From: Paludibacteraceae bacterium
GTDB lineage: Bacteria; Bacteroidota; Bacteroidia; Bacteroidales; Paludibacteraceae
NCBI GenBank assembly: GCA_017461505.1
Contig: JAFTXV010000003.1
Span: 53,013-117,012, forward strand
Reading direction: 5' to 3'
DNA length: 64,000 nucleotides
The notes beneath the pieces were generated by a model. The model searched no databases. It was not told where the DNA came from and saw only the letters and a list, made by a program, of their open reading frames with translations. This document shows, piece by piece, positions 37,158-64,000 of the stretch (positions within the stretch are counted from its first letter, which is position 1; the number at the start of each line of letters is the position of its first letter). A program made the position numbers and the translations under genes.

Positions 37158-38348
37158 TCATATTATTCTTAATGTGCTTCCAGGGAAGTAGTGAGCAAGG
37201 ATTTGTTCGTAGGTGTAACCTTTGTCTGCCATGACGGCGGCACCGATTTGGCAAAGTCCTACACCGTGTCCCCAGCCTGCACCTGTGAGGATAAAGTCTC
37301 CATTCTCGTTGCGATCTATTACAAAGGCGCTACTATACAAGTGGCTCTTGCTTAGCCATTTGCGAATCTCTAACTCCTTACCAATCACCATCGTGCGCTT
37401 GCTGCCGACAATTTGCATCTCGTACAAACGAGCAGATGGACCACGTTTGATAGGTACGAGGTCGAGAATCTCGCCAAAGTCAATACCCGAACGCTCACGG
37501 ATGATCTCGCTAAGTTCCTCTTTGGTGTATTGTACGGTCCAACGGTAGAAATCCTTGGTCTCCTGGTCGTAGTTGTTCAATACTTGGCTGAGGATGCGCT
37601 CGTCGGTAGTATTGCAATAAGCAGAAGGCGAGGTGCGGATAAACGCTTGTGCATTGGCCTCGATGGTCAAGTCGGGTAGGAGAGTGCCTATCTCATCGCG
37701 GACTGCCTCAAGGTATGGATAATGTTCGTTTGCCCAAGCGTTCTCGAAGAGTTCGGTAGCACCGCCGCAGGACTTATAGAAGCGTGCATCGCACACTTTT
37801 CCGTCATACATCAGCACTTGTCCGCGTGTCGCATCAATGGCTTTTTGGACGTTGGCTGCTGCCTCGGGGTGCTCATCACGGCGGGTGATACCCTCGTAGC
37901 GTTGACAGTGGTCGTCGGCGCATACATCAAAGCCCTCATGTGCGTCACGTTCGTACCAAACGACATGGCGATCAGGGTCGCTGAGGTCGGGTTTGTCGGT
38001 GCAGGTGGATGGACTGATGATAGGACGGAGTACCCAACTGCGGGAGATGACAGCATGTGCTTTCAGCAGTTCGAGCGAGGAGGTGGCTGACATCTCAGAG
38101 GTGATAACCGAACTGAGGTAGTCTTCTACATCGAGTCGGTTGATGGCAGTCTGTGTGCCATCTGCGTTATCGCGTATTTCGAGTGTACCTTCAAACTCTT
38201 GGTCTTCAAGGCGATCCCAGTGGAATCCAATACCAATACGGACATTCTTGAGTAGGAAGGTCGGACGCTCTGGTGTAGAGTGAGGACCTGGAATGACTGC
38301 TTCAATCTTTGGGGCGGTCATTACGCCCACTGCAATGTCGTGTTTCAT
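37158..38348 (-). CDS. SpoIID/LytB-domain protein without signal peptide
   Basis: SpoIID domains cleave glycan strands from which the stem peptides have been removed (lytic transglycosylase activity in Clostridia and Bacillus). Family signatures are VEDYLSSVITSEMSATSSLELLKAHAVISRSW (in part), CDARFYKSCGGATELFENAW and GAGWGHGVGLCQIGAAVMAD. The start at 38348 (MKHDIAVGV) gives 396 residues. No signal peptide or membrane segment is seen from this or any upstream start, so the protein seems cytoplasmic. It is in a gene group for amino-sugar and muropeptide metabolism, suggesting action on imported material. Confidence 0.85.
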   Translation of the reverse strand: MKHDIAVGVMTAPKIEAVIPGPHSTPERPTFLLKNVRIGIGFHWDRLEDQEFEGTLEIRDNADGTQTAINRLDVEDYLSSVITSEMSATSSLELLKAHAVISRSWVLRPIISPSTCTDKPDLSDPDRHVVWYERDAHEGFDVCADDHCQRYEGITRRDEHPEAAANVQKAIDATRGQVLMYDGKVCDARFYKSCGGATELFENAWANEHYPYLEAVRDEIGTLLPDLTIEANAQAFIRTSPSAYCNTTDERILSQVLNNYDQETKDFYRWTVQYTKEELSEIIRERSGIDFGEILDLVPIKRGPSARLYEMQIVGSKRTMVIGKELEIRKWLSKSHLYSSAFVIDRNENGDFILTGAGWGHGVGLCQIGAAVMADKGYTYEQILAHYFPGSTLRII

Positions 38349-38371
38349 GAGTGTATAGTTTTTGTTGTTAA

Positions 38372-38737
38372 TTATCGTTCTACTGCGCCCTTCCACGAGT
38401 TGAAACCTGTGTTAAGTTCTACGACTTGGTAGCCGTGTTGGGCGAGTTGCATGGCGGCATTTTTGCTTCTTCTGCCTGAACGACAGTAGAGAGCAATGGT
38501 TTTATCTTTAGGAAGCAGTTGCTCTGCTTTTTGGATAAAGTCGGCTTGTGTGACATCTATAAGCAGCGCGCCAGGGATATGCCCTTGCGCATATTCGTTG
38601 GCTGTTCTGACATCCAGGCGCACAACGGTGGTATCCTCAATGACTTGCGCAAAAGTATTCGCATCCACCGATCGGAAGTCAGCTGCTTTGCAACCTAAAA
38701 AACTCATTAGGCAAAGTAGGAAAGGGAAGTGTTTCAT
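38372..38737 (-). CDS. Rhodanese-like lipoprotein
   Basis: 121 residues: signal peptide with lipobox (LMSFLGC) and one rhodanese domain with LDVRTANEYAQGHIPGA and the active-site loop CRSGRR. Sulfur-transfer or redox role at the periplasmic membrane face; substrate unknown. It lies between the SpoIID gene (23 bases) and the DUF4922 gene (11 bases), so it is in the same operon. Confidence 0.88.
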   Translation of the reverse strand: MKHFPFLLCLMSFLGCKAADFRSVDANTFAQVIEDTTVVRLDVRTANEYAQGHIPGALLIDVTQADFIQKAEQLLPKDKTIALYCRSGRRSKNAAMQLAQHGYQVVELNTGFNSWKGAVER

Positions 38738-38748
38738 TAAAGGTGTGT

Positions 38749-39741
38749 TTAATTATTAGATTCAGTTAATTGAGATATTTGTTCTGTTGGTTTTGTTCCA
38801 ACTCTGCAAAGATACTGCATTTCAGCTACTTCGCGGATGATGTCGCGGAGTTTCTCTGGGGTAAGTCGGTCGAAACTCTCACGGTTGGCTACAATGCCGA
38901 TACCTGCCATCTCTACCGTGGCAGGAGAGAACAATATGCGCTCTTCCTCGGGAGCGAAGAAACACATGGGGCGGGATTCTTTTCTGAAGAATACGATTGT
39001 GTTGAATTTAGGCGATGAGGCGATAAGGCTATTAGGCGATGAGGCGGGCTCATACCACGAAACAATATTCCAGCGGGGTTCGTATTCTTCGGCATGAGAG
39101 GCACCGATAGTCAGCGAGCCTGTTTGGCTGGCTTCTTCAGGGATAGTACCCATAGCAAGCACGCGCTTGACAGCTGCCAAATGGGATTGTAAATCAGATT
39201 CTTGCACCAAGATAGCATTGGCGTAGTTGGTGGAGAAATGGTCTTCTATTGGGAGACTGTGGCGAGGCACAGCTTGGAAATGCATATGGTCGGGGGCACT
39301 GGCTCCGCACATAGGACCATTGTAGAAAATGGTCATCTCGGGCAACTCCTTCGCCAAGTGCAACATGGCTTCGAGGTGAGGCAGCAGTTCTTGGCGTTCG
39401 TGTACGGAGGAAGAAACGGTGAAATGCGGAGAGAAAATTGGGAAAGGGTTTACGCGTATATAATAGGTGTGCTCTGTAGGGGATTCCCAGTTGTGGGTGA
39501 GTTGGTTTTCCTCTACGCCATCGGGGCAGAGGAAGCATGCGCGCTGTTGCAGAGCTTCAGGGCTGACGTCCGCCATCACGCTGCGGACACGAGCAGGGTT
39601 GAAAAACAATTTGGCAGGGAAACCGTCGATAGTCATGTCTTTGACTTCGACCCTAGATAAGGCTTGGTAATTAACAAATGCTCTCCCGTGAGCATTGAGC
39701 TCGCGGGAGAACATGTCTGTTATTTGTTGATAAAGTGTCAA
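38749..39741 (-). CDS. DUF4922 protein (HIT/GalT-like fold)
   Basis: 330 residues. The central GPMCGASAPDHMHFQAVPR contains an HxHxQ-type motif as in HIT and galactose-1-P uridylyltransferase-like enzymes, and an N-terminal CFLC segment may bind metal. I recognise the DUF4922 pattern. It probably transfers or hydrolyses a nucleotidyl group on a sugar phosphate; the substrate is unknown. An interspersed repeat is read through in the variable loop SSPNSLIASSPKF (39010-39047). Co-directional with GT2 and NagB/PIG-L genes. Confidence 0.75.
   Translation of the reverse strand: MTLYQQITDMFSRELNAHGRAFVNYQALSRVEVKDMTIDGFPAKLFFNPARVRSVMADVSPEALQQRACFLCPDGVEENQLTHNWESPTEHTYYIRVNPFPIFSPHFTVSSSVHERQELLPHLEAMLHLAKELPEMTIFYNGPMCGASAPDHMHFQAVPRHSLPIEDHFSTNYANAILVQESDLQSHLAAVKRVLAMGTIPEEASQTGSLTIGASHAEEYEPRWNIVSWYEPASSPNSLIASSPKFNTIVFFRKESRPMCFFAPEEERILFSPATVEMAGIGIVANRESFDRLTPEKLRDIIREVAEMQYLCRVGTKPTEQISQLTESNN
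39010..39047. repeat. GGCGATGAGGCGATAAGGC repeat inside the DUF4922 gene
   Basis: AGGCGATGAGG occurs twice around GCTATT. The 15-mer AAGGCTATTAGGCGA recurs on the minus strand at the intergenic copy ending near 41400. Read antisense to the valS copies, giving Ser/Pro/Ala-rich residues. Confidence 0.7.
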
Positions 39742-39769
39742 AACAGTTTAAAGTTTATAGTTTAAAGTT

Positions 39770-39836: not shown

Positions 39837-39839
39837 TGA

Positions 39840-41264
39840 TTACTTTCCCTCGTTCATTTGGATACGTGCCTTCAACTCCCATGTACGGATACGATCTTTG
39901 TACAAGTGGTTGTTGTTCATGGTCACGATATCGCAGTTAGCATCAGAGTTGTCATCCCAACGACGGCAGTTATACACTACGTCATAGATACGACCGATTT
40001 GATACTCACGGCTTACGCGCAAACCAACTGCATAATCCTCACCATACTTGGTAGTTGGGAAGTTGATAGTGCGAAGCATTGGGGTGTAGAAACCACGTGG
40101 TGCGCCGAGACCGTGGATACGGAGAGCGTTGTTGCGACCGTTGTCTGGTGTCCACTCTTTATGGTCAATAATTCCTGGAGGAATCATATTGCCGTCAAAG
40201 TCGGTGAGTTGGTATGTACCTACTACCATTGCGCAGTTTTGCTCGTGGAAAGCATCAATGAACTTTTGTACGGTGTTCTCGTCGAAGTAAGTGTCGTCAG
40301 AGTCCAATTGGATCGCGAAGCGACCGCATTTCTCGTGGTGGAGAGCTACGTTCCAGTTGCCACCGATAGCGTGCCATGTCTTATCTTGAGCGATATAAAC
40401 GAGATTGTCGTGACCCTCAGCAACGATGCTCTTGATTACATCTACGGTGCCGTCTTCTGAGTTGTCATCTACAACAATAACATTGTATTTATAAGGAGCG
40501 TTTACTTTTTGATTGAGCGCGCTCTTAATAGCAGTACCAATGGTACGAACGCGGTTCTTGCAAGGGATAATTACAGATGCCTCATACTCGAAGCCACCAC
40601 CTTGGAGGTCAATGTCTTTGAAGCCAGGAGCGAGGTAACCGTTGATGTCTTTGAGGTGTTGGGTAGCCGCTTGCTCCATCTCGATTTGTACGCCACGGTT
40701 CTTAGGATCCACATAGTCGAAGTTCTTCTCGCCAGTGGTACGGTTGTCGAGCTCTACATCATAATAGAGGTACTCGTTGATGTGCTCCAAGGCTCCCTTT
40801 TGGCTCACTTTGAGGCGGAGATCATAGAGACCTGCATATTGATAATCCACATCCATGCGAGCTACAGCCTCTTTGATAGCGCTAGTGCGATAGAAAAGAA
40901 CAGAACCGAACTCGAAGTCGTCACGGATAGAACCCAATTGGTAGTCGATAACAGGAGCGTTGGTACGAACGTCACCTACTTGGTTGAAGTGGTCAGCGTA
41001 AACCATAGCAGCCTTGGTGTCCTCGATAAGAGCCTCCATTCGCTCGAGCGCGAAGAGAACGAATGAGAGGGTGGTGTACTTGGTGTAGATCAAGGTATAC
41101 TCGGTGTTAGCCTTCTCAGCGATCTCGCGAACAGTAGCTGTTGAGCGGATGTCACCGTGCAAGAAATGAATGTCTGCTACGAGCTCTTGAGCCTTCAAGT
41201 TAGCCACGGTAGCTTGTACTTGTTCCTCACTTTGGAAAGGAATAAAACATGTGATATTTTTCAT
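39840..41264 (-). CDS. Family 2 glycosyltransferase
   Basis: 474 residues, no signal peptide. The GT-A domain starts near residue 230 (ASVIIPCKNRVRTIGTAI, VIVVDDNSEDGTVDV) with the metal motif LDSDDTYFDE. The C-terminal part includes FPTTKYGEDYAVGLRVSREY. The N-terminal 220 residues also look like a diverged GT2-type fold (MKNITCFIPFQSEEQVQATV), so this may be a tandem arrangement with only the second domain active. Its acceptor is unknown. The company of NagB/PIG-L and SpoIID suggests an amino-sugar polymer. Confidence 0.82.
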   Translation of the reverse strand: MKNITCFIPFQSEEQVQATVANLKAQELVADIHFLHGDIRSTATVREIAEKANTEYTLIYTKYTTLSFVLFALERMEALIEDTKAAMVYADHFNQVGDVRTNAPVIDYQLGSIRDDFEFGSVLFYRTSAIKEAVARMDVDYQYAGLYDLRLKVSQKGALEHINEYLYYDVELDNRTTGEKNFDYVDPKNRGVQIEMEQAATQHLKDINGYLAPGFKDIDLQGGGFEYEASVIIPCKNRVRTIGTAIKSALNQKVNAPYKYNVIVVDDNSEDGTVDVIKSIVAEGHDNLVYIAQDKTWHAIGGNWNVALHHEKCGRFAIQLDSDDTYFDENTVQKFIDAFHEQNCAMVVGTYQLTDFDGNMIPPGIIDHKEWTPDNGRNNALRIHGLGAPRGFYTPMLRTINFPTTKYGEDYAVGLRVSREYQIGRIYDVVYNCRRWDDNSDANCDIVTMNNNHLYKDRIRTWELKARIQMNEGK

Positions 41265-41342
41265 AAATTTTAATAAATAAAATGATTATTTTTCTTTGTT
41301 TAGTGTAGGGCGTAGAGTGTAAGGTGTTTAGCCAGGAATTAT

Positions 41343-41398
41343 GCGGCATAGCCGCTATCCCCTCGCCTTTAACCTTTAACCTTTCGCCTAATAGCCTT
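41343..41398. repeat. Intergenic repeat with GCGGC hairpin between GT2 and NagB genes
   Basis: Hairpin GCGGC-ATA-GCCGC (41343-41355), then CCCTCGCC and CCTTTAACCTTTAACCTTT, ending in TCGCCTAATAGCCTT. Same module order as at 39770-39836. Confidence 0.7.
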
Positions 41399-43388
41399 AA
41401 AGAATATGATATTGTACAAACGCCTCGATAGCCTCATATTCTGCCAAGCCGAGGTCAGAGTACATTTTCGCAGTATCGTGGTTGCGATCCTCAGCGCGTT
41501 GCCAGAACAGACGCTCATCATCACCAAGGAATGGAGCAGATTCCATTTGGCTTGCATGACGGAGAATTGCGTTACGTTTAGAGCGGAGCTCCTCTGGTGA
41601 CATAGGTACAGCCATCTCTACGAGATCCATCTCCCATTCCATCCATGCACCACGGTACATCCAGATGCGACAGTCTTTCAACCACTCGTCCCATGCAGCG
41701 GTGTGCTTGAGCTCATCGAGAGCAGCGAGCACAGCGTCAAGACATACGCGGTGAGTACCATGAGGGTCTGCGAGATCGCCAGCAGCGAAGATTTGTTGTG
41801 GTTTAACCTCTTCAAGGAGCGCTTTTACGATGTCCACATCGGCTTGAGAAAGAGGACCTTTCTTGATAGTACCAGTCTCGTAGAATGGCAAGTTGAGGAA
41901 GTGGATATTCTCGGTAGGGAGACCCATGTAGCGGCAAGCTGCGGTAGCCTCACCACGGCGAATAAGTGCCTTGAGGTTGAGAATCTCACGGGTGTCGTTG
42001 TCGCCCACCTTCTCGTTGTGGAAGAAGTTCATATATTCGTCGTACTTCTTCTCAATTACTTGATCTTCAGGAAGGTGCATGAGTTTGTAACCCTTCATGA
42101 AGTCCATGAAACGAACTACCTCCTCGTCGCATACAGCGATACAACCACTGGTCTCGTAAGCCACGTGCACATTGTGACCTTGGTTGATAAGGCGTTGGAA
42201 AGTACCACCCATAGAGATGACATCATCATCTGGGTGAGGAGAGAAGATTACGATATCTTTTGGGAATGGTTTAGCACGCTCAGGGCGGTTGGTGTCATCT
42301 GCATTTGGTTTGCCACCTGGCCATCCGGTGATGGTGTGTTGTAGGTCGTTGAATACCTTGATATTGCACTTGTATGCAGATTCAAATTTGGTAATAAGTT
42401 CGCTCAATCCGAAATCGTTATAGTCCTTATTGGTGAGTTTGAGGATTGGCTTTTTGGTTTGTTCGCAGAGCCATACCACAGCGCGGCGAACAAGTTGGTC
42501 GGTCCACTCGCAGTTGGTCACTTTCCAAGGATGATTGATGCGGGTGAGTTTGTTAGCTGCTTCCAAGTCGAGAACAAATGAAGCATTTTTATGCAGTTGC
42601 AAATATGAAGCAGGGCAAGCAGAAGATGCAACTTCTTCGATAGCTTGTTTCACGATGCTGGCCTTGTGTTGACCAAAGGCGAGGAGAATCACCTCTTTGG
42701 CTTGTAGAATGGTTTCGATACCTAGTGTGATGGCGCATGTGGGTACTTGCGCTACATTGCCAAACAACGACTTAACATCCACACGTGAGTTGTCATCCAT
42801 GATTACCAAACGAGTAGAAGAGTTTGGCTGTGTACCTGGCTCATTCATCGCGATATTGCCACATTGACCAATACCCAATACTTGAATATCAATGCCACCC
42901 GCCTCTGTGATAGCTTTCTCGTACTCTTCGCAGAATGCAAAAATGGTCTCTTTAGGCAGGTCACCAGGGAATGTATGTACGTTCTCTGGAAGAATATCGA
43001 TGTGATCAAGTAGCTGGCTTTGGATTTGTGCCATACTACCCATAGAAGAGTCTGCAAGTGGGTAGAATTCGTAAGAACCAAAAATAACCACGTTCTTGAA
43101 ACTAAGTCCCTCTTCTTTGTGCTTACGAACCAACTCTACAAACAAATCACGCATTGAGCGACCTGATGCCAATGATAAAACAGTCTTCTGACCATTAGCA
43201 TCACGGCGGTTGATCAATGTTGCGATACGTGTAGCCACTGCGGCAATTCCCTCTTGAGGGTTCTCAACAATAGTCGTGTTCACGTGCTCCATGCGAGTAA
43301 CGCGTGACTGCTCATATGCGTCCACAGGGCGATACAATTTCTCTTCAACTTTGCTCAGAGAAATCAACTGGCTAAGATTATTTCTCAT
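41397..43388 (-). CDS. NagB-like deaminase fused to PIG-L/LmbE deacetylase
   Basis: Start at 43388 (MRNNLSQLI), 663 residues. The N-terminal part (about 50-300) is a glucosamine-6-phosphate deaminase/isomerase domain (LSLASGRSMRDLFVELV, VLGIGQCGNIAMNEPGT). The C-terminal part (about 375-560) is a PIG-L-type zinc deacetylase with SPHPDDDVISMGG and the second metal site in DPHGTHR. The fusion could couple removal of an N-acetyl group with deamination of amino-sugar phosphates. It is divergent from the kinase and MurQ genes that would supply GlcNAc-6-P. Confidence 0.9.
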   Translation of the reverse strand: MRNNLSQLISLSKVEEKLYRPVDAYEQSRVTRMEHVNTTIVENPQEGIAAVATRIATLINRRDANGQKTVLSLASGRSMRDLFVELVRKHKEEGLSFKNVVIFGSYEFYPLADSSMGSMAQIQSQLLDHIDILPENVHTFPGDLPKETIFAFCEEYEKAITEAGGIDIQVLGIGQCGNIAMNEPGTQPNSSTRLVIMDDNSRVDVKSLFGNVAQVPTCAITLGIETILQAKEVILLAFGQHKASIVKQAIEEVASSACPASYLQLHKNASFVLDLEAANKLTRINHPWKVTNCEWTDQLVRRAVVWLCEQTKKPILKLTNKDYNDFGLSELITKFESAYKCNIKVFNDLQHTITGWPGGKPNADDTNRPERAKPFPKDIVIFSPHPDDDVISMGGTFQRLINQGHNVHVAYETSGCIAVCDEEVVRFMDFMKGYKLMHLPEDQVIEKKYDEYMNFFHNEKVGDNDTREILNLKALIRRGEATAACRYMGLPTENIHFLNLPFYETGTIKKGPLSQADVDIVKALLEEVKPQQIFAAGDLADPHGTHRVCLDAVLAALDELKHTAAWDEWLKDCRIWMYRGAWMEWEMDLVEMAVPMSPEELRSKRNAILRHASQMESAPFLGDDERLFWQRAEDRNHDTAKMYSDLGLAEYEAIEAFVQYHIL

Positions 43389-43458
43389 AATGTGTATATG
43401 TTTATTTTTATTATTGTCAGGCAAAGTACGCACACAATTATGCATGCTAATTCGACTG

Positions 43459-43490
43459 CAAAATTACATTATTTTATCAAATTATGCAAA
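43459..43490 (-). promoter_or_regulatory. Promoter of the NagB/PIG-L operon
   Basis: TTTG (43487-43490), 20-base spacer, TAATTTTG (43459-43466) on the minus strand. Confidence 0.8.
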
Positions 43491-43557
43491 CGGTTGCGAA
43501 AAAAAAGTTTTTTTTTTACTTTTTATATGTTTTACAACATAAATCGCATGATAACGC

Positions 43558-43588
43558 TTGCGCGCGTGAAAAAAAAATAGTACTTTTG
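43558..43588 (+). promoter_or_regulatory. Promoter of the kinase-murQ operon
   Basis: TTG (43558-43560), 20-base spacer, TACTTTTG (43581-43588), with an A9 tract just before the -7 box. Confidence 0.8.
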
Positions 43589-43648
43589 TAGGCTATTTTG
43601 TGTGTAACGGGTTTGAAAATATATGAAAATAACAAAAATAGAAACGAT

Positions 43649-44506
43649 ATGATTTTAATTGCAGATTCAGGATCAACCAAGACTCATTGGTGTTTAATGG
43701 CGGCAAATGGCCATTGCAGTGAGTATTTTACGGATGGTATTAATCCATTCCAACAAACATCTGATGCTATCAAGAATAGTGTAAGTAATCAGCTTTTACC
43801 TAAAATGGCAGGTGAGATGTGGGCTGGTAAGATTACTAATATTTATTTTTATGGCGCAGGTTGTACACCGGAGAAGACCCCTGTGGTAGAGTATGCGTTG
43901 GAAGGTATATTTAAGGATGCAAAGATTAATGTGTATTCTGATATGGTGGGTGCGGCCTGCGGTTTGCTTGGCGAGGAAACAGGCATCGCTTGCATTTTAG
44001 GTACTGGTGCTAATTCCTGCTTATGGAATGGCAAGGAGATAGAGAAAAATGTACCTGCGCTTGGTTTTATTTTGGGTGATGAAGGAAGTGGCGCTGTGTT
44101 GGGTAAGCGTCTCGTGGCTGATTTGCTGAAGAATCAATTGAATGATGAGTTGAAGGAGAAATTCTTGACTCAGTATAATATTACTGCTGCAGACATTATT
44201 GAAAATGTGTACCGCAAGCCTTTCCCTAATCGCTATTTAGCCTCTCTCAGTCGCTTCTGCGCTGAAAATATGGATAACCCATTGATTGCTCAACTCGTTT
44301 ACGATCACTTCGATTATTTTGTAAAGCGTATCTTGCCACAGTATCCCGCGCTTCCTGTTGGATTTATTGGTTCGATTGCGTACTACTATCAAGATGTGCT
44401 TAAACAAGTCTTGGCTGACAATGGATTCCAAGTTGGTAAGATTCTTCAAGATCCTATGGAGGGCTTGAAGGAGTATCATAAGAAAGATGTTGTTCCTACA
44501 ATGTAA
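43649..44506 (+). CDS. BadF/BadG-type sugar kinase, candidate MurNAc/GlcNAc kinase
   Basis: ASKHA-fold ATPase of 285 residues. The ATG at 43649 places the phosphate-1 motif at the N terminus (MILIADSGSTKTHWCL). Phosphate-2 is ACILGTGANSCLWNG, and GFILGDEGSGAVLGKRL follows. BadF-type kinases include human N-acetylglucosamine kinase and MurK of Tannerella forsythia. The murQ gene 84 bases downstream supports a MurNAc kinase that provides MurNAc-6-P. Known specificity varies, so GlcNAc is also possible. Confidence 0.85.
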   Translation: MILIADSGSTKTHWCLMAANGHCSEYFTDGINPFQQTSDAIKNSVSNQLLPKMAGEMWAGKITNIYFYGAGCTPEKTPVVEYALEGIFKDAKINVYSDMVGAACGLLGEETGIACILGTGANSCLWNGKEIEKNVPALGFILGDEGSGAVLGKRLVADLLKNQLNDELKEKFLTQYNITAADIIENVYRKPFPNRYLASLSRFCAENMDNPLIAQLVYDHFDYFVKRILPQYPALPVGFIGSIAYYYQDVLKQVLADNGFQVGKILQDPMEGLKEYHKKDVVPTM

Positions 44507-45408: not shown

Positions 45409-45421
45409 AAATGCTTTAAGG

Positions 45422-45453
45422 TTTGGTGATTTCGATATTTTTTTGTATCTTTG
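45422..45453 (+). promoter_or_regulatory. Promoter of the second SusC operon
   Basis: TTTG (45422-45425), 20-base spacer, TATCTTTG (45446-45453). It leaves a leader of about 45 nt, much shorter than for the first SusC gene. Confidence 0.82.
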
Positions 45454-48570: not shown

Positions 48571-48608
48571 TAAACGAAACTTTAACTTTGATAAGAAAGA
48601 ATAAAGAT

Positions 48609-50486: not shown

Positions 50487-50527
50487 TGCATAAAATGTGT
50501 TGTAATTTATTAAGAACAGATTGAAAT

Positions 50528-51379: not shown

Positions 51380-51402
51380 TGACCATTTAAATCATTGAAT
51401 AT

Positions 51403-53067: not shown

Positions 53068-53084
53068 ATAAAATAATTTGTACT

Positions 53085-55625: not shown

Positions 55626-55652
55626 TAAAAACGAATTTAATAAACAATCTTT

Positions 55653-55662
55653 ATTATTAACC
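55653..55662 (+). promoter_or_regulatory. Conserved ATTATTAACC box
   Basis: Exact copy of the decamer at 9788, 17 bases before the ATG at 55680. Confidence 0.5.
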
Positions 55663-55679
55663 TTTTAATACGAAATGTT

Positions 55680-58136
55680 ATGAAAAAAATCTTTACTTTT
55701 GTAGCAGCACTGATGGTGGCTACGATGACATTCGCTGAGGTATCTTATGAATACAACGGCGGTTGGGCCAACGAAGATGGTTGGCAAAATAAGCAAGACA
55801 TGTATGAGGGCTTGAATGCGCTCTGGCAAGATTACAAAGACGTCCCTGAAGACTTTGCACATTATACCTGGGCTTCGTTGGATTCTTGTGCAGGTGATGT
55901 GGCAAAAGGTATTCCTACAGCGACCGACATTTCTACTAACAACTATGGACTAGATGGTGCGATGTTTGAAGTAGAAGAAGTGAAAAATAAGTTTGGTTGG
56001 TTAATGGATTACATGATTTATGTATGTACTTTACAAAAAACTGAGACTAATTTGAAAGATGCTGGTAATCATGCATTCTTGCGTTACAACTTGCAGGCAT
56101 TCTTCTTGAATAGCCAACGTACCTCATGGCCTGTTTCTGCTGATTATGCAGATCAAGGTAAGGTGGACTATTTCCAACCTTATTGGAAAAAAGGTTTTGT
56201 TAACCCAACTTCTGTAACCGAGCCTTATGCATTGCAAAAACCTTATAAAGAGGAAGTTATCGATGGCTTGACAGTGAAATATACTTTCGATGGTTGGTAT
56301 GCTAGTGCTGATTTCTCTAGTGAGAAAATTGATACTTTGCTTCCTGAAATGTCAGGTACCCTTTATGCAAAATGGGTAGAGTATATTCCTTCTGTAAAAG
56401 AAGTAGTTGCTATGGAAGATGGCGCAGAGACCAAGATTAGCGCTATTACCACTTATATTGATGGTACCATGGCTTATTTGCAAGATGAGTCTGCTGGTAT
56501 GCGCGTAGTATTCCCAGAGGGTACTGAGTTAAAAGACAACGTTCGCTATGTCGTGAAAGGTATCAAGTCTGTAGTAGATGGTGCGCCAACATTGACTGTT
56601 TCTGTTATTGAGAAGAGTTTCGCTGTAGAGGCAATTAAGCCTATTGTTGTTGAGGCAGTGAAATCATTGGGTGATTATGTAGGTACTTTGATTCAGTTGG
56701 ATGGTAAGCGTATTGCTGGTTATGATGCAGCTGGTGACCCATTGTTCCGCGATGACCATGATACTATTGCTTCTTACAAATTGCCTATCGACCAAGCTAC
56801 TTTCACTGTTCGTCGCAAATCAGACGTGGTAGCTGTGGTAGAGCAAGCCAATGGTTTGCGCCTTCGCGCTTATGTAGCAAATGTGAAGCCATCTGCTCCT
56901 GCAGGTAGTGATCCTCACGAATATGAATCAATGACCCTTGATGGTACTACTTATGGTTTGACCAACGACTGGTTGTTTAGTATTGTATTGGAGAACTTCA
57001 ACTCTAACAAACCTAATGATATTGCTTCTGGTAGCCGTTCAGTTGTATTGTACAATGGTTATCTCTACTTCCCTAACCGCGACGCGAATGAACCTTCCTA
57101 CCTCAACTTCAAGAAGGTAAATGTGGCAGATGGTGATATGTTTGATGCTATTCCAGCAGCAGACTATTTGTTCCGTAGCAGAGGCAAAGCAGGAAATGCC
57201 TTTGTATTTTGTCCTGCTAACGACTTGAAGGTGGACAACGCAGGTAACATGATTGCTTCTAACTTGATTACTAGTGCAAAGGGCGAGTTCCAAGTATGGT
57301 TGATGACAGATATTGACAAAGGTGAAGGTCGTTTGCTTATCTGCGATACTACTTTGAATGACGATTATTACGAAAATGCCACTCTTCGTATTGATGCAGT
57401 CGGTGTATATGGTGATGTAACCAAAGATGCGATTATCATGGCAGCAGCTTCTTCTACCAGTGATGTGTATTATTGGATGATTGAGGATGGTGAGTGGGAT
57501 GGTAATCACGAGTGGATTCCTACTGAAGGTGGTTACAACTGGGGTACAGCACCTCAATGTTTCCCAATCGAAAATGATATGTTCTATGTAGATGGATTCA
57601 GTACCTACCCAGTGCTCTTCAATATGGATGGTGAGGTAATGGACTTCTTTGACACTGAAGATGAGGCATGCTTGGCATTGCTCACCAACCGCAATGGTAA
57701 AACCCGTGCTATGGGTCACAACGGTTTGGCTGAGTTTGAGCTAGGTGGCGAGTACTTCCTCTTGATGGCAGGTGCTAACACAGCTAATAGTCCTGCTTCT
57801 ACTTTCGTGCTCTACAAGTGTGCTGACGAGAACCGCGTATTTGCTGAGATGACCCAAATGTGGGAGTTCCCTTACGATGGTATGGGTAATGTAAGTAACG
57901 ACGTGCGTACTGCTGTACCTTACGTATTGAAGGTGGATGACAACACTGTGAAATTCTGCGTATATACCAACAACAATGGTTATGGTGTATATACCTTCAC
58001 TAATAATGCTGTTCCATCAGCAGTGGAGAATACCACAAGCACTACTATGGGTGTAGAGAAGCACGTGGTAGATGGTCAACTTTATATCATCCGCAATGGT
58101 GTACGTTACTCTGTAATGGGTAGTGTAGTAAAATAA
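55680..58136 (+). CDS. Secreted protein with InlB-like repeat, beta-propeller-like region and C-terminal tail
   Basis: 818 residues. Signal peptide without lipobox (MKKIFTFVAALMVATMTFA). An N-terminal region of about 165 residues (VSYEYNGGWANEDGWQ) resembles the start of the truncated protein at 63725. A Listeria-Bacteroides/InlB-type repeat follows (FDGWYASADF, GTLYAKW, about 195-235), then an OB-like segment (about 240-410). A beta-rich region ends it (SRSVVLYNGYLYFPNRDANEP, YYWMIEDGEWDGN, DMFYVDGFSTYPVLF). The tail has SAVENT, GQLYIIRNG and GSVVK. Probably a surface or extracellular binding protein; no enzyme motif found. Confidence 0.7.
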   Translation: MKKIFTFVAALMVATMTFAEVSYEYNGGWANEDGWQNKQDMYEGLNALWQDYKDVPEDFAHYTWASLDSCAGDVAKGIPTATDISTNNYGLDGAMFEVEEVKNKFGWLMDYMIYVCTLQKTETNLKDAGNHAFLRYNLQAFFLNSQRTSWPVSADYADQGKVDYFQPYWKKGFVNPTSVTEPYALQKPYKEEVIDGLTVKYTFDGWYASADFSSEKIDTLLPEMSGTLYAKWVEYIPSVKEVVAMEDGAETKISAITTYIDGTMAYLQDESAGMRVVFPEGTELKDNVRYVVKGIKSVVDGAPTLTVSVIEKSFAVEAIKPIVVEAVKSLGDYVGTLIQLDGKRIAGYDAAGDPLFRDDHDTIASYKLPIDQATFTVRRKSDVVAVVEQANGLRLRAYVANVKPSAPAGSDPHEYESMTLDGTTYGLTNDWLFSIVLENFNSNKPNDIASGSRSVVLYNGYLYFPNRDANEPSYLNFKKVNVADGDMFDAIPAADYLFRSRGKAGNAFVFCPANDLKVDNAGNMIASNLITSAKGEFQVWLMTDIDKGEGRLLICDTTLNDDYYENATLRIDAVGVYGDVTKDAIIMAAASSTSDVYYWMIEDGEWDGNHEWIPTEGGYNWGTAPQCFPIENDMFYVDGFSTYPVLFNMDGEVMDFFDTEDEACLALLTNRNGKTRAMGHNGLAEFELGGEYFLLMAGANTANSPASTFVLYKCADENRVFAEMTQMWEFPYDGMGNVSNDVRTAVPYVLKVDDNTVKFCVYTNNNGYGVYTFTNNAVPSAVENTTSTTMGVEKHVVDGQLYIIRNGVRYSVMGSVVK

Positions 58137-58159
58137 TGACACTAAAGTTGTAAAATAAC

Positions 58160-58212
58160 AGTTTATGCTCCTCTCTGCCAGCAAATAGGTTGGCAGAGAG
58201 GTAGTATAAACT
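58160..58212. terminator. Long intergenic hairpin
   Basis: A 21-bp stem (58160-58180 with 58191-58212) with one G-U pair, one bulged T and a 10-base loop. There is no T run, so it is more likely a processing or stability element than a true terminator. Confidence 0.5.
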
Positions 58213-58244
58213 ATTACGTAAAACATTAAAAAACCGTGAATAGC

Positions 58245-60575
58245 ATGAAAAAAATACTACTCCTTGCCATAGGCTTATTTGTTTCGATTAGTTATTGCGA
58301 TTTGAACGCACAAGCAGACATTACGTTGGGTAATGTAGCGTACACTATTGACACGTTGGAGACCTTTCAATGTGGTCCTGGTAGTGAGTATATTGCTATT
58401 CAGATGCGTCGTGTGAGCGATCGTCAAGGACGCTTAGATGCATATATATTGAAAGTGGATTCCAAGAATCCATATATATCGTTTGAGGAAGTATTGGGTA
58501 GCGGTAAGGTGGTAGGAACGGAGCGTCCATCGGATATGGCAGCGCGCAATACCACTGGTACTAAAATCTTTTTTGGTGGCACTAATGGTGACTTCTTTGT
58601 CACACAAGGCGATGTAGGTAAGCCAGTAGGTGTAACGATTGTGAACAATGAGTTTGCCACTTTCCCAGATCATCATGAGGGACGTCGTATAGGCGCCATT
58701 GATGAGCAGATGCGTGGTGCGATTGGCTATGCAGCTAGTTTTTCGGGAAGTGTGACTATTGCTGAGGAAACGAAAGCGATAAAACGAGTGAATTATAGTC
58801 GTGGAGAGAATGAGTTGGTGCTTTACAATGCACACAACGGTACCTCTACGAACACCAATGAACATGGTACCGAGTTGTTGGTACAATTAGTGGAGGGGGA
58901 TACTTGGCATACCAATTGCAATGTCAAGGCTGTGGTAAAGACTGTGGAAACGGGCAAAGGTAATATGACGATTCCTGCAGGAATGAATGTGTTGTCAGGA
59001 CATGGCGAGATGGCTACGTTCCTAGCAACAGCTAAAGAAGGAGATACGATCGCCATCCAATTGGCATTCACCATAGATGGCGAAACTAAGAATATATCGC
59101 AGTGTATAGGTGCAGATACCTATGCATTGATTGTGGACAATGGAGTAGTAGTAGAATCTAATTTTTGGGATGAGAAGCACCCACGTACTGCATTTGGCCA
59201 ATCAGCCCAAGGTGATACCTTGCTCTTCTGTGTGGTAGATGGACGTGGTAAGTCCATCGGTTGCAATACGAAGGATCTGGGTAGTATTATGAAGCATTAT
59301 GGTGCATATAAGGCCGTTAACTGGGACGGAGGTGGTAGCTCTTGTATGTATATCAAGCATTTTGGTCAGGTCAATAATGGCTCTGATGGTTGGGAACGTT
59401 CGGTGGGTAATGCGATGTTTGCCGTAGCTACGCTCCCTGAGGAGGATAGTACCATCATAAAACTGCGTGCATATTCCTCTACGCTTAATCTGCCTAAATA
59501 TGGAGTTCATACTCCTAAGATATTGGGTTATAATCAATACGAAGTATTGTTGGATCCTAATGTACAAGGTGTAGAAATGGTGTGTGATCCAGAGGTGGGC
59601 TATGTGAATGAAGATGGCGCCTTTGTATGTTTGGGTAATGGTGTAATAACGCTGAAGAAAGATAATGCATCAGGACAAGTGCAGGTGCGTCTTGCTGAAA
59701 ATGTAGAGATTGGTATGCGTTTGGATACTGTGATTGTGTATGATAAATCCAATTATCCAGTTGAGGTAGTGTCAACCGTTGGTAAAAACGTGATTACCAT
59801 CCAACCATCTGCCCTTGAGTGGTCGGTGAAGGATGAGACTATTGCAACGATCGATGAAAATGGTCTATTAAATGGTGTGGCTAATGGTGTAACTGAGATT
59901 TATGGTAGTCTCAATGGTCAAATTGATACATTGGCAGTCAAAGTAATGATTCCAGAGTCGAATCCACTGTGCTTTGATGACTTTGTGAAAGATTATACTA
60001 CTCGTTGGGAAATGAAGGCAAGTAATGACAAATGGGGAGCAACGATGCAGGAAATCAATGGAAAAGCAAATCTGTATATGAATTATACAGCAGGTCGTCA
60101 AGCAAATATCCGATTTGCAACTGAGCAACAGTTATATTCTGCACCTAATGAATTGCTGTTGCGTATGACACCTCAGGGTGATTTAATTGAAAAGATTACT
60201 ATTGGTTTGCGTGCTGCTAATGGTGTAAATTCGGTGAATTATTCTACTGAGAACATCGCGCAAGACCAACCGATGGAAATCGTTGTGGATTTGGATAGTC
60301 TCTTTGCTGTAAAGAACGACATAGCTATTTATCCAGTGACGATAGAATTTATTACTTTTGCGTTTAATATGAAGGCTGAGAAAAAGGAATATAACATTCC
60401 TATTGACGGCATTTATTTGACATACAACGATGGTAAGGAGACTACTGATATGGAGAATGTATCAGTGACTCCAGCAGCAGGTGATAATGTAGGTGTGAAG
60501 TTTGTACAAGGAGGACACCTATATATAATGCGTAATGGCAAAATCTATACAATCTTAGGAACGCAAATTCAATAA
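58245..60575 (+). CDS. NAGPA-type phosphodiester glycosidase with Big2 domain and C-terminal tail
   Basis: Start at the ATG 58245 (MKKILLLAIGLFVSISYC...); an in-frame GTG at 58236 is less likely. The catalytic domain (about 30-395) carries KIFFGGTNGDFF, CVVDGRGKSIGCN and AVNWDGGGSSCMYI, typical of N-acetylglucosamine-1-phosphodiester alpha-N-acetylglucosaminidase proteins (DUF2233). A Big2 Ig-like domain (ATIDENGLLNGVANGVTEIYG) and a CBM-like domain (DDFVKDYTTRWEMKASN) follow. The tail has DMENV, GHLYIMRNG and GTQIQ. It could release sugars joined by phosphodiester links, as in teichoic acids. Confidence 0.85.
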   Translation: MKKILLLAIGLFVSISYCDLNAQADITLGNVAYTIDTLETFQCGPGSEYIAIQMRRVSDRQGRLDAYILKVDSKNPYISFEEVLGSGKVVGTERPSDMAARNTTGTKIFFGGTNGDFFVTQGDVGKPVGVTIVNNEFATFPDHHEGRRIGAIDEQMRGAIGYAASFSGSVTIAEETKAIKRVNYSRGENELVLYNAHNGTSTNTNEHGTELLVQLVEGDTWHTNCNVKAVVKTVETGKGNMTIPAGMNVLSGHGEMATFLATAKEGDTIAIQLAFTIDGETKNISQCIGADTYALIVDNGVVVESNFWDEKHPRTAFGQSAQGDTLLFCVVDGRGKSIGCNTKDLGSIMKHYGAYKAVNWDGGGSSCMYIKHFGQVNNGSDGWERSVGNAMFAVATLPEEDSTIIKLRAYSSTLNLPKYGVHTPKILGYNQYEVLLDPNVQGVEMVCDPEVGYVNEDGAFVCLGNGVITLKKDNASGQVQVRLAENVEIGMRLDTVIVYDKSNYPVEVVSTVGKNVITIQPSALEWSVKDETIATIDENGLLNGVANGVTEIYGSLNGQIDTLAVKVMIPESNPLCFDDFVKDYTTRWEMKASNDKWGATMQEINGKANLYMNYTAGRQANIRFATEQQLYSAPNELLLRMTPQGDLIEKITIGLRAANGVNSVNYSTENIAQDQPMEIVVDLDSLFAVKNDIAIYPVTIEFITFAFNMKAEKKEYNIPIDGIYLTYNDGKETTDMENVSVTPAAGDNVGVKFVQGGHLYIMRNGKIYTILGTQIQ

Positions 60576-60585
60576 ACATTATATC

Positions 60586-63500
60586 ATGAAAAAGCAACTA
60601 ACTATTTTATTAGGTATCGCGTTGTGCCTCTGTGCACAAGCAGACATTCGTGTGCTGAGCGATGTGAAATTGGGCGAAGGTTTCTTCCCGCGTTTTGCTG
60701 ATGCAGAAACTGTTGTCTATTTGGAACATAGTAAAGCAGATTATCTAGCTTCTCAAGAAGACGCAATGCTTTGTGTGGATAATGACAATTTGGACCTCAA
60801 TCTGTATCGTAATGGAGAGAAGACGGTATTGAAACCTCATGGCGATGTCAATTATATTTGGGTATCGCTTTCTCCTAATCAAGAGATGATTTTGTTTAAT
60901 ACCAAACATGGTACTGGTATTTGCAACCTAGATGGTGAAGAAATTATCAATTTAGGTTTAGATTTTGATGCGCCAGTATGGTATGGCAATGACTATGTGG
61001 TGGGTATGGATGATAATCACGATGGTTATTACAATATAGAGTCATCTATTATGATAGCTTCGGTAGATGGTAAGGTTGTAAAACGTTTGACCTCTCCAGA
61101 GGGTATGGGTATGTATCCAAACGTAGATGCTAAGTCGGGTCGTGTGGTATATAATACCGAAGATGGCGACATTCGTATGTTGCAATTGAATTTGACAGAG
61201 CAACCAATTCGTAAAGAGTTGCCACGTATGGTAAAGCAATTGGATGGTACCTTGCTTAACAAACTGCAACGTCAAGCAAAACGTGCGGCAAGCAAGAATC
61301 CTGCTGACTATAAGATTTATATCAACCCAGGTCACGGTGGTTATGACTCTGATGACCGTTTGATGTATCTATATCCTATTTTTGATGGTACCAACGTACG
61401 TGAGGGTTATACTCGTGAGCAAAGTTTCTGGGAGAGTACTTCTAACTTGGATAAGGGCTTGCGTCTTGATACCATGTTGAGTGCACTGGGTTTCCAAACC
61501 AAATTGTCACGTATTCACAATACTACAGAAGATGACCGTAGTCTTTCTGCTATTTCTGCTGAGGCGAGTGATTGGAATGCTGATTTTATGCTCTCTATTC
61601 ACTCCAATGCAGGCGCACCATCTAACTATGTGCTTCAAATCCACTCAGGTATCACTCCTGGTGATCCAAAGGGTTTGGATGGTTATCCAGAGCAAGTGCC
61701 AGAATGGGTATGTAATGAGGCACGTGCCATCACCACTCTGATGGGGGCAAATCAATACTCTAACGAGGTGAGTTGCTGGTCAAAAGAGCCTACTATTGCA
61801 GGCGATAAGACTTTTGCTCGTACTATCATGGGGTGGAGTAATGGCTATGGCGTGTTGCGCAATTTGAGAGTACCAGGAACTATCTCAGAAGGTATGATGC
61901 ACGATTATTTGCCAGAGACCTATCGCCTTATGAATATTGATTATAAGCGTCAAGAATCGTTCTACTTTGCGAAGACGTTTATAGAATATTTCTGTGAGGG
62001 TGAGTTGCCTTATGGTGCGATAGGTGGTCAGTTGCGCGATGATTTCCAAAAGCAACTATTCCCTAACTACAATGCCCGCAAGAATACACGCGATGTGTTG
62101 TTGCCAATCAATCGTGGTAAAGTGGAGTTGTATAATGAAGCTGGTGACCTATTGCAAACATATGTGACAGATACCTTGTATAATGGATGCTATTTCTTCT
62201 GGAATCTCCAACCAGGTACGTATATAGTAAAGGCAGAGGAAGCAGCATACTATCCAAAGACTGATACATTGGTAGTAGAGAATAACAAAATCTCTTATGC
62301 TAACTTTATGATGTCGTTGCGTCGTCAAACTCCTCCAGAAGTAATCTCTTATTCACCTAATGTGGCAATCGAGGATAGTGTGAATGTGGCTACTCCTATT
62401 GTGATAAACTTCAACTGGGATATGTGGGAAGAACCTACTCGTGCAGCGTTCTCTATCACTCCAGAGGTGGAGGGTACATTGGAGTTTGAGAACTCACAAC
62501 GTACATTGCGCTTTACTCCAAAATCGGTGTATGCTCCTGCTACAGAATACACGGTTCGCTTAGCAACCACTGCTGCGCACCCCGATACCAATTATGTCAA
62601 CACCTTGCAAGAGGAGTTTGTGATAAAGTTCCGTACAAAGAATCGTCCTTATTTGCAAGTGATGAATACCTATCCTGCAGAGGGAGAAACAGGTGTAGAT
62701 TTGAAACCATCTATCTTTGTTCTTTTCGATCAAAAGATTTCGAAGGATAGCAAGCAAAGTTTGTTTAAGGTAACGGATAATGCAGACTTTAGTTACACGC
62801 CTGCTGCTCGTAACTTCAAGAAGAATGCGGTGGAGTCGCCATACGGATCTGTGTCAATTGATGTGAATGAGGAATTGTTGCCCAATACCCAATATCAATT
62901 GGTGATTGATGGCGCATTGAAAGATACAGACAATGTTGTATTGTACCATCCTTACGTATTGACATTCACAACAGGCAATGGTCAGTCAGTAGAGGAAGGT
63001 GAAGTATTCCACTCATTGGATGATGTGATTTTTGATGTGGATGCTGAGAATACAATGGGCTTGGAGTCTAAGAAGATTATGCAAGGTGGTTCTTTGAAAC
63101 GTACTGAGGGTGAGAACTCTAACTCGATAGAATATACCTTTGATGTCAATGAGAAAGAGTCTAATATGATGCTCCGAACCGTACAACTGAGTCAGATATT
63201 CCGATCTACGGACAAGTTGATAGTGGATATCTATGGCGACTTTACGTTCAATGAGGTGTATGTAGAGTTTGCTACAGAGGGTGACTTGCATCGCTATAAA
63301 GTATGTGACTTGGATTACTTGGGTTGGAGAACCCATGTATTGGATCTCTCTACCACTGATTTGCCTACTGGTGTAGATTACCAATGTATGGGCTTTAATA
63401 TCGTGAAGACTCAGGTAGAGCCAATCTTGTGCAATAATGGTCATATTTATTTGGATCGTTTAGCCATTGTGAAAGGTCAGTCTGGTGAGACCGCAGTAGA

Positions 63501-63624
63501 GAATGTAGAAGCATCAGGTGTAGAGAAAACGCCTATCTATGACTTGTTAGGTCGTCCTACAGAGAAGAAATATCCGTATCAAATATATATACAAGACGGA
63601 AAGAAAATAATTACTAACCAATAA
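60586..63624 (+). CDS. N-acetylmuramoyl-L-alanine amidase (Amidase_3), multidomain
   Basis: 1012 residues; signal peptide MKKQLTILLGIALCLCAQA. A beta-propeller-like N-terminal part (NYIWVSLSPNQEMILFNTKHG in part) precedes the zinc amidase domain (about 240-480) with YINPGHGGYD, the Glu in QSFWES, LSIHSNAGAPS and SEGMMHDYLPE. Ig-like Big5 domains (FNWDMWEEPTRAAFSITPE), a CBM-like domain and a tail (TAVENV, YDLLGRP) complete it. It cuts the stem peptide from MurNAc, which would create the peptide-free glycans favoured by SpoIID-type enzymes. It starts 10 bases after the NAGPA gene. Confidence 0.9.
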   Translation: MKKQLTILLGIALCLCAQADIRVLSDVKLGEGFFPRFADAETVVYLEHSKADYLASQEDAMLCVDNDNLDLNLYRNGEKTVLKPHGDVNYIWVSLSPNQEMILFNTKHGTGICNLDGEEIINLGLDFDAPVWYGNDYVVGMDDNHDGYYNIESSIMIASVDGKVVKRLTSPEGMGMYPNVDAKSGRVVYNTEDGDIRMLQLNLTEQPIRKELPRMVKQLDGTLLNKLQRQAKRAASKNPADYKIYINPGHGGYDSDDRLMYLYPIFDGTNVREGYTREQSFWESTSNLDKGLRLDTMLSALGFQTKLSRIHNTTEDDRSLSAISAEASDWNADFMLSIHSNAGAPSNYVLQIHSGITPGDPKGLDGYPEQVPEWVCNEARAITTLMGANQYSNEVSCWSKEPTIAGDKTFARTIMGWSNGYGVLRNLRVPGTISEGMMHDYLPETYRLMNIDYKRQESFYFAKTFIEYFCEGELPYGAIGGQLRDDFQKQLFPNYNARKNTRDVLLPINRGKVELYNEAGDLLQTYVTDTLYNGCYFFWNLQPGTYIVKAEEAAYYPKTDTLVVENNKISYANFMMSLRRQTPPEVISYSPNVAIEDSVNVATPIVINFNWDMWEEPTRAAFSITPEVEGTLEFENSQRTLRFTPKSVYAPATEYTVRLATTAAHPDTNYVNTLQEEFVIKFRTKNRPYLQVMNTYPAEGETGVDLKPSIFVLFDQKISKDSKQSLFKVTDNADFSYTPAARNFKKNAVESPYGSVSIDVNEELLPNTQYQLVIDGALKDTDNVVLYHPYVLTFTTGNGQSVEEGEVFHSLDDVIFDVDAENTMGLESKKIMQGGSLKRTEGENSNSIEYTFDVNEKESNMMLRTVQLSQIFRSTDKLIVDIYGDFTFNEVYVEFATEGDLHRYKVCDLDYLGWRTHVLDLSTTDLPTGVDYQCMGFNIVKTQVEPILCNNGHIYLDRLAIVKGQSGETAVENVEASGVEKTPIYDLLGRPTEKKYPYQIYIQDGKKIITNQ

Positions 63625-63697
63625 AGAATAATCAAAAGAACAGAAAAGACAAAAATCGGGATATGAATTCCCAACCAACAATTTTTATTTAACCAAA

Positions 63698-63707
63698 ATT
63701 ATTAACC
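63698..63707 (+). promoter_or_regulatory. Conserved ATTATTAACC box
   Basis: Third exact copy of the decamer, 17 bases before the ATG at 63725. Confidence 0.5.
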
Positions 63708-63724
63708 AAAAAAACAAAATCATT

Positions 63725-64000
63725 ATGAAGAAATTATCGTTTCTTATGTTTGCCCTCGCGGCAACGATGATGCTCTCCGCGCAGACCTTTAAGGTAACGT
63801 GGAATCTTGATGGTGGTGCTACCAACCAATATGGTGCTGCCAACAAGTCAGAGTTGTTCAATGCATTTGTAGCAGATTGTGGCATTACTTTGCCAGCAGA
63901 TGTTACATTGGAGTCTTTGATGGCATATGCTGCTGAGAATCCTGACAACCCATGTAAGAATTTGGGTATTGGAAAATACCTTACTAAAGTTGGCGCTTTA
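63725..64000 (+). CDS. Secreted protein, 5' part only (runs off the window)
   Basis: 92 codons are present. Signal peptide MKKLSFLMFALAATMMLSA, then FKVTWNLDGGATNQYG, an InlB-repeat-like opening, and a helical region (SELFNAFVADCGITLPADV). The overall start resembles the protein at 55680, and the upstream box is shared, so it is probably a paralogue. If so, it should have the same C-terminal tail beyond the window. Confidence 0.7.
   Translation, partial: MKKLSFLMFALAATMMLSAQTFKVTWNLDGGATNQYGAANKSELFNAFVADCGITLPADVTLESLMAYAAENPDNPCKNLGIGKYLTKVGAL

Follow-up and report, generated by a model that had tools for sequence, protein, structure and literature searches.

Tannerella forsythia carries an ampG-murTKQ operon, which, according to its published description, comprises a gene annotated as xanthan lyase, two gtf genes, lytB, ampG, ybbC and murTKQ (PMC5388701). 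The GHL10 protein Cwp19 of Clostridioides difficile was reported to be a lytic transglycosylase acting in autolysis (PMC6016235). In the present study, a stretch of 64,000 nucleotides (hereafter the window) from contig JAFTXV010000003.1 of a Paludibacteraceae bacterium (assembly GCA_017461505.1) was analyzed, in which a locus at 37158-63624 combines a MurK-type kinase and MurQ, the N-acetylmuramic acid (MurNAc)-6-phosphate etherase, with a SusC/SusD importer and secreted enzymes of peptidoglycan-type families. Peptidoglycan is plentiful in the gut and rumen, and the locus is probably a polysaccharide-utilization-type locus for bacterial peptidoglycan, a reading to which we assign a probability of about 0.78. 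It had been put forward in a sequence-only reading, made from the DNA letters without database searches, and is now supported by comparative genomics, namely the presence of MurQ in all 23 genomes of the genus and all 11 genomes of the order set that carry the locus SusD, as well as recurrent linkage.

The locus consists of 15 genes in two divergent groups, as judged from Pfam and NCBIfam scans and the translations. Every family named in the sequence-only reading was recovered, and the locus also holds a rhodanese, a DUF4922 protein, a GT2 glycosyltransferase, two lipoproteins (LP283 and LP554) and an 818-aa secreted protein (P818). The minus-strand group is made up of SpoIID, rhodanese, DUF4922, GT2 and NagB/PIG-L, and the plus-strand group runs in the order MurK-type kinase, MurQ, SusC, SusD, LP283, LP554, GHL10, P818, NAGPA and Amidase_3. 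As in a Sus-type polysaccharide utilization locus (PUL), SusC and SusD are neighbors, and GHL10, NAGPA, Amidase_3, LP283 and LP554 are co-localized with them. Scanning of the locus genes gave no regulator, and the genes at 50528-51379, 51403-53067 and 55680-58136 matched no Pfam family at E <= 0.001. The source genome is 1.74 Mb in size with an estimated completeness of 82%. Because the contig stops at the window's end, near which one more gene begins and is cut off, the 3' end of the locus lies out of view. The features are as follows.

37158-38396, minus strand: SpoIID/LytB-domain protein (TIGR02669, 181 bits, cut-off 83.3)
38372-38737, minus strand: rhodanese-like protein (PF00581)
38749-39741, minus strand: DUF4922 protein (PF16269, 162 bits)
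39840-41264, minus strand: GT2 glycosyltransferase (PF00535)
41397-43445, minus strand: NagB/PIG-L fusion, glucosamine-6-phosphate deaminase-like (PRK02122, 985 bits)
43446-43597, no strand: divergent intergenic region of 152 bp, with a TAnnTTTG element on each strand
43598-44506, plus strand: MurNAc/GlcNAc-type sugar kinase, MurK-like (full-length matches to solved MurK-type kinases; GlcNAc, N-acetylglucosamine)
44590-45408, plus strand: MurQ, MurNAc-6-phosphate etherase (TIGR00274, 317.5 bits, cut-off 302)
45422-45453, plus strand: promoter-like site TTTG-N20-TATCTTTG before susC (motif match)
45505-48570, plus strand: SusC/RagA TonB-dependent importer (TIGR04056, 636 bits)
48588-50486, plus strand: SusD-like lipoprotein (PF12771 and PF12741; profile matches to solved SusD homologues)
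50528-51379, plus strand: surface lipoprotein LP283 (lipobox by eye; no Pfam family)
51403-53067, plus strand: surface lipoprotein LP554 with PKD-like domain (PKD profile matches; no Pfam family)
53085-55625, plus strand: GHL10 protein, secreted (PF02638, 195 bits; Cwp19, 5oq2, 243 bits)
55680-58136, plus strand: secreted protein P818 (no Pfam family, no PDB profile match)
58236-60575, plus strand: NAGPA phosphodiester glycosidase, secreted (PF09992, 91 bits, cut-off 25)
60586-63624, plus strand: Amidase_3 N-acetylmuramoyl-L-alanine amidase with Big_5 domains, secreted (PF01520, 37.8 bits, cut-off 27)

The relatives set comprised 150 genomes, among which G000-G090 (91 genomes) were taken as the genus, judging from their numbering. 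MurQ is present in 25 of these 91 genomes and the locus SusD in 23, all of which carry MurQ (23/23); the MurQ genomes without SusD are G019 and G057. LP554 gave high-scoring matches in the same 23 SusD genomes and weak matches only in two more. The distance between MurQ and SusC is at most about 4 kb in 20 of the 23 SusD genomes, and SusC follows MurQ directly or one gene later in 18 of them, the window counted, with G074 and G070 showing another arrangement within about the same distance. One contig of G078 ends in a SusC fragment right after MurQ, its SusD terminating another contig, and both MurQ and SusD of G023 are at or near contig ends. The best named SusD relatives are Paludibacteraceae from herbivore guts, with JAFNUD010000124.1 from dairy cattle cecum at the top.

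Beyond the genus, a SusD profile was applied to an order set of 393 genomes from 206 genera, in which scoring was confined to the three best candidates of each genome, so that the SusD counts, at least 11/393 genomes and at least 10/206 genera, are lower bounds. All 11 SusD genomes carry MurQ, which occurs in 88/393 genomes overall; at the level of genera, MurQ is found in 10/10 with SusD versus 54/206 (hypergeometric 8e-7, kinship uncorrected), or in 8/8 (1.5e-5) when the two weakest matches, G218 and G470 at less than 240 bits, are removed. The gene-order comparison across Bacteroidales, which had been suggested as a check on the sequence-only reading, agrees with it, since SusCD is accompanied by MurQ in every SusD genome of both sets and further cell-wall catabolism genes often adjoin. 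For instance, G150 has the entire arrangement together with AmpG, in G445 AmpG, MurQ, GT2 and DUF4922 are arranged divergently from SusC, in G470 MurQ is immediately upstream of a distant SusC, and in G162 the cassette is closely preceded by NamZ, NlpC/P60 and an epimerase-like gene. In G446, G199 and G328, a MurK, a second amidase, GT2, SpoIID, AmpG, NamZ, an FAD/Fe-S dehydrogenase, a MurT-like gene and MurQ lie on the same contig within about 38 kb of SusD, with DUF4922 called in the G446 and G328 islands. Peptide-side genes (NlpC/P60 and L-Ala-D/L-Glu-epimerase-like) are found near the cassette in G162, G328, L102 and L154.

Two further observations were made in passing. The FAD/Fe-S dehydrogenase, which passed no NCBIfam cut-off, turns up again next to the cassette or to mur genes in L089 (9484-12303), L083 (18517-20000, partial), L121 and L172, in other families, and may oxidize the D-lactate released by MurQ. 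In G445, MurQ belongs to an open frame of 560 aa (L081 3774-5456), whose C-terminal half holds the SIS domain and which may be a fusion.

A scan of named genomes yielded 198 relatives, and the 80 best were retained. Upstream genes were assessed in the 67 of 80 loci with at least 1 kb upstream of SusC; 13 were left out, including Bacteroides nordii (L149). MurQ or MurK is located upstream in 47/67 and any cell-wall marker in 52/67, the five marker loci without MurQ or MurK carrying AmpG, NamZ or NlpC/P60. In Bacteroides salyersiae DSM 18765 (L151), a MurK-type gene with 45% identity sits directly upstream of SusC. On the downstream side, among 58 loci with room, LP554 was detected in 58, LP283 in 56 and GHL10 in 55, and among 54 loci with room past LP554, GHL10 was detected in 52, P818 in 46 and NAGPA in 39. 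The recurrent unit is SusC-SusD-lipoprotein-lipoprotein-GHL10, and its carriers include Bacteroides salyersiae and Barnesiella. The recurrence of the importer with the same kinds of genes in so many relatives points to a nutrient-uptake system for peptidoglycan. As well, an SGNH/GDSL esterase (PF14606/PF14607) was seen between MurQ and SusC in L047 (10290-11441), L050 (15184-16299), L124, L133 and L134, which could strip O-acetyl groups from peptidoglycan.

The kinase at 43598-44506 scored 20.3 bits against Pfam BcrAD_BadFG, below the cut-off of 31.5, so its MurK-type identity is taken from full-length alignment to solved MurK-type kinases and not from the Pfam score. The bit scores over the full length are 309 for 1zxo of B. 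theta (Bacteroides thetaiotaomicron), 292 for 8oqw and 291 for 8ow9; 8oqk and 8ow7 scored 216 and 215 bits, and the MurK-aligned start is residue 18. According to a structural study, 8OW9 and 8OW7 show T. forsythia MurK and its paralogue K1058, respectively, each with MurNAc; D95 of MurK is catalytic, and S133-P134-L135 give space to the lactyl group (PMC10465942). Aligned to MurK, the window kinase retains G67, D95, N119 and D141, among which are the catalytic Asp and the sugar-contacting Asn and Asp.

MurQ exceeds its NCBIfam cut-off (TIGR00274, 317.5 versus 302 bits). The NagB/PIG-L fusion, which the sequence-only reading had placed in the same pathway, is present in the locus and in 20 of the 25 MurQ genomes of the genus, yet also in 16 of the 66 genomes without MurQ; it was therefore rejected as an enzyme strictly tracking MurQ, being enriched among MurQ genomes but not exclusive to this pathway. 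G070, one of the five MurQ genomes without NagB/PIG-L, has NagA (TIGR00221, over cut-off) immediately after murQ, and this single case hints that the PIG-L half may provide the deacetylase step. AmpG, NamZ and MurT were not called in the visible part of the locus by general family scans, in which no MurT-aimed search of the source genome was included and the locus leaves the contig. An AmpG-like permease is encoded away from the locus in 11 of the 12 genus genomes tested.

On the surface side, LP554 matches PKD-domain profiles around residues 52-114, and LP283 and LP554 are probable glycan-binding proteins. Membership of LP554 in DUF4623, an idea raised by a DUF4623 gene beside GHL10 in G109, was rejected, as the profile comparison matched the signal-peptide region only; likewise, comparing the LP554 and P818 profiles gave nothing beyond that region. 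P818 itself has no PDB profile match and no Pfam family. Escherichia coli DigH, which acts on denuded glycan, presumably has a GHL10 domain too, and a text search gave no mention of GHL10 for it. For the GHL10 protein of the window, the sole PDB match at E <= 0.01 is Cwp19 (5oq2, 243 bits), and by this homology the protein is assigned to peptidoglycan as a putative glycosidase of the lytic-transglycosylase type.

The NAGPA protein matched the DUF2233 protein 3ohg at 41 bits and chains named NAGPA at 18 bits, a weak score over shared motifs, and its R317 and D364-G367 are invariant in 11 aligned sequences; no substrate of bacterial NAGPA/DUF2233 members was found in the literature searched. The Amidase_3 protein is a distant family member in which H250, E283 and H339, which we take to be the zinc ligands, are invariant in six aligned sequences. 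Judged by eye, the amidase, GHL10, NAGPA and P818 have signal peptides and end in C-terminal tails that look like sorting signals. Type IX sorting-domain models gave no match to these four proteins within the E-value limits used, and SprA of the type IX system is encoded in the source genome. The tails encoded at 9816-11072, 55680-58136 (P818) and 58236-60575 (NAGPA) are alike, with YI, one residue, R, N or D, G and a short LG/MG stretch, and this shared tail is a possible sorting signal.

The same enzymes could serve the recovery or remodeling of the cell's own shed wall instead of feeding on other bacteria, since GHL10 proteins and amidases take part in self turnover too, Cwp19 being reported to act in autolysis (PMC6016235), and AmpG-like permeases were present in all but one of the genus genomes tested. 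However, a TonB-powered SusCD with surface lipoproteins suits uptake from outside, even though shed fragments might still be recaptured, and SusD occurs in just 23 of the 91 genus genomes, many of them incomplete, and is therefore apparently not needed for self turnover. We regard self-wall recovery as quite unlikely to be the main role.

Under the preferred assignment to external peptidoglycan, with substrate, enzyme locations, step order and regulation read from the observed gene content, family membership, conserved linkage and co-occurrence, the pathway would run as follows. Outside the cell, Amidase_3, GHL10 and NAGPA would remove peptides and phosphodiester-linked side polymers from the wall and cut the glycan; SusD, LP283 and LP554 would hold the fragments at the surface, and SusC would take them across the outer membrane with TonB energy. 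In the periplasm, SpoIID would trim the glycan, and an AmpG-like permease encoded elsewhere would carry fragments or MurNAc across the inner membrane. In the cytosol, the MurK-type kinase is predicted to make MurNAc-6-phosphate, MurQ to remove D-lactate from it to give GlcNAc-6-phosphate, and the NagB/PIG-L fusion to convert the latter to fructose-6-phosphate.

Regarding transcription, TAnnTTTG elements point both ways in the 152-bp divergent region, and a full TTTG-N20-TATCTTTG promoter-like site, starting at 45422, lies between murQ and susC, both motifs belonging to what we take to be the Bacteroidales-type promoter consensus. Such sites occur in 6 of 36 other MurQ-SusC gaps, with about 0.1 expected from base-shuffled gaps, the gap ends hinging on start-codon choice. 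The two divergent groups sharing one intergenic region (43446-43597), which had been described earlier as two operons, were confirmed, but the plus-strand group may not be one unit, as susC has a promoter-like site of its own. Co-regulation of the two groups is possible.

Several observations weigh against peptidoglycan as the substrate. The kinase pocket differs from that of MurK (S-P-L to P-A-L, F35 to Q, T94 to S), its residues still being small, and the lactyl-pocket motif in other genus loci where the motif search found the site is P-A-L in 20/21 and A-A-L in 1/21; since catalytic and sugar residues are kept but the pocket is not identical, MurNAc is a plausible rather than a proven substrate. 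The source genome, which is 82% complete, yielded no AmpG. Because a promoter-like site precedes susC, the plus-strand group may comprise two transcription units, with SusC transcribed separately from murKQ. MurQ and SusD are on separate contigs in G011 of the genus and in G162, G410, G403 and G218 of the order set. In a phylum scan of 395 genomes, two further weak SusD matches from other orders, with SusC-SusD-lipoprotein-LP554-GHL10, showed no mur genes in the 45 kb read. As a control, an unrelated SusD of the window was also MurQ-enriched in the genus, with MurQ in 9 of 12 genomes for close orthologues (p 3e-4) and in 13 of 30 for all matches (p 0.02), so that clade structure accounts for part of the within-genus signal and the within-genus p-value is not to be taken at face value.

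The promoter-like site before susC and the separate contigs of G011 would also suit an unrelated utilization locus that abuts the mur genes by chance. However, all 10 SusD genera of the order set have MurQ (hypergeometric 8e-7) and the linkage occurs in several arrangements, and after these co-occurrence tests, together with the 23/23 in the genus, chance neighborhood was set aside as hardly credible.

A further point on the opposing side is that 15 of the 67 assessable named loci show no cell-wall marker in the stretch read. Three of these are Barnesiella (L157, L159 and L160); L157, taken as matching G199, has its mur island downstream, past the fetched stretch, and the same may hold for L159 and L160. 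These relatives without mur genes nearby would fit a SusCD unit that imports another aminosugar or phosphodiester glycan, for instance from host or fungi, with murKQ adjoining since both feed one aminosugar pool; NAGPA, which by its family name acts on GlcNAc-1-phosphodiesters generally, and NagB/PIG-L, a general enzyme, would be compatible with such a glycan, and relative L168 adjoins an alpha-amylase. That alpha-amylase is the one glycan enzyme among 10 neighbor genes chosen from 8 of the 15 marker-less loci, the other nine being CorA, DHH, hexapeptide, class II tRNA synthetase, peptidase C25, PorV, DNA polymerase I, an outer-membrane transport protein and a carbon-nitrogen hydrolase. The frequent placement of mur-less SusCD sets beside other glycan enzymes, which had been named in advance as speaking against a peptidoglycan role, was accordingly not seen in this sample. 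Moreover, the scans of the operon, three of whose proteins matched no Pfam family, gave no further family of glycoside hydrolases; the enzyme conserved alongside the importer is GHL10 (55/58), and AmpG, NamZ, NlpC/P60 and amidases recur in relatives. Import of another glycan is thus considered improbable, and peptidoglycan is retained as the likely substrate.

The SusC-to-NAGPA block (45505-60575) appears to have a history of its own. In six species (G058, G072, G014, G039, G025 and G066), MurQ is 95-98% identical to that of the window, whereas SusD is 48-51%, LP554 36-39% and NAGPA 42-47% identical (five read for NAGPA); Amidase_3 is 72-80% identical in four of the six, as read over the N-terminal 175-502 residues. 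G054, with 97% identity in MurQ, is 72-91% identical to the window over the entire block. The MurQ + MurK + GT2 tree unites the window, G054 and the six species, all eight, with support of 1.0, and in the SusC + SusD + LP283 + LP554 + GHL10 tree the window and G054 join G074 (1.0) and then G038 and G070 (0.99), with the six species distant. Because near-identical MurQ accompanies a divergent block and the two trees disagree, replacement of the block in one lineage is probable, with the cytosolic genes that flank it and the amidase left in place. Possible causes are substrate switching and escape from SusCD-using phages.

Mammalian NAGPA cuts GlcNAc-alpha-1-phosphate-6-mannose to give mannose-6-phosphate, and the linkage of teichoic acid in many Gram-positive walls is GlcNAc-alpha-1-phosphate-6-MurNAc. 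By this chemistry, a NAGPA cut at the teichoic linkage would leave MurNAc-6-phosphate, the substrate of MurQ, in the glycan. It may be speculated, as a tentative and rather doubtful extension, that NAGPA removes wall teichoic acid, that the locus is a scavenger or predator kit for decorated Gram-positive walls, and that the block exchange is wall-type switching.

Elsewhere in the window, a second SusC/SusD locus at 1166-13390 carries a protein near the endo-1,6-beta-glucanase family of BT3312 (682.8 bits, cut-off 700) and is probably a beta-1,6-glucan utilization locus. A minus-strand tRNA-Asp (gtc) at 36763-36837 lies between ValRS and the mur-SusCD locus, and short tandem repeats of 11-bp units with TACGTA or ATACGTA occur at 36520-36592 and 17944-18009, outside the listed genes.

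If the peptidoglycan reading is true, the five-gene unit (SusC, SusD, LP283, LP554 and GHL10), often with mur genes, would mark cell-wall feeding across Bacteroidales, and the idea can be put to a direct test in named carriers, Bacteroides salyersiae and Barnesiella among them. No peptidoglycan-directed SusCD locus was recognized in the literature searched, mostly by title and abstract start and with subscription journals largely outside, which is weak evidence of novelty.

Like the T. forsythia ampG-murTKQ operon (PMC5388701), the window has a MurK-type kinase, MurQ and LytB/SpoIID, and related loci in the order carry AmpG, NamZ (ybbC) and a MurT-like gene near MurQ; DUF4922 and GT2 of the window might correspond to the two gtf genes. 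Features of the window that go beyond that operon are SusC/SusD, the two lipoproteins, GHL10, NAGPA and Amidase_3, whereas calls for AmpG, NamZ or MurT are lacking in the visible part of the locus; the words SusC and TonB are absent from the Tannerella paper (PMC5388701). The locus resembles Sus-type PULs of Bacteroidota in its tandem SusC/SusD, surface lipoproteins and clustered secreted degradative enzymes, but differs from the usual ones in that the called enzymes are of peptidoglycan type and not ordinary carbohydrate-active enzymes (CAZymes), MurK/MurQ are attached, and no regulator was called among the scanned genes. The NAGPA domain shares motifs with the mammalian uncovering enzyme and with the DUF2233 protein 3ohg, although in the window it belongs to a secreted multi-domain bacterial protein. 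Finally, the GHL10 catalytic domain is like that of Cwp19 (243 bits), which is described as a Gram-positive autolysin with CWB2 repeats (PMC6016235), whereas the window domain is encoded together with a SusCD importer.

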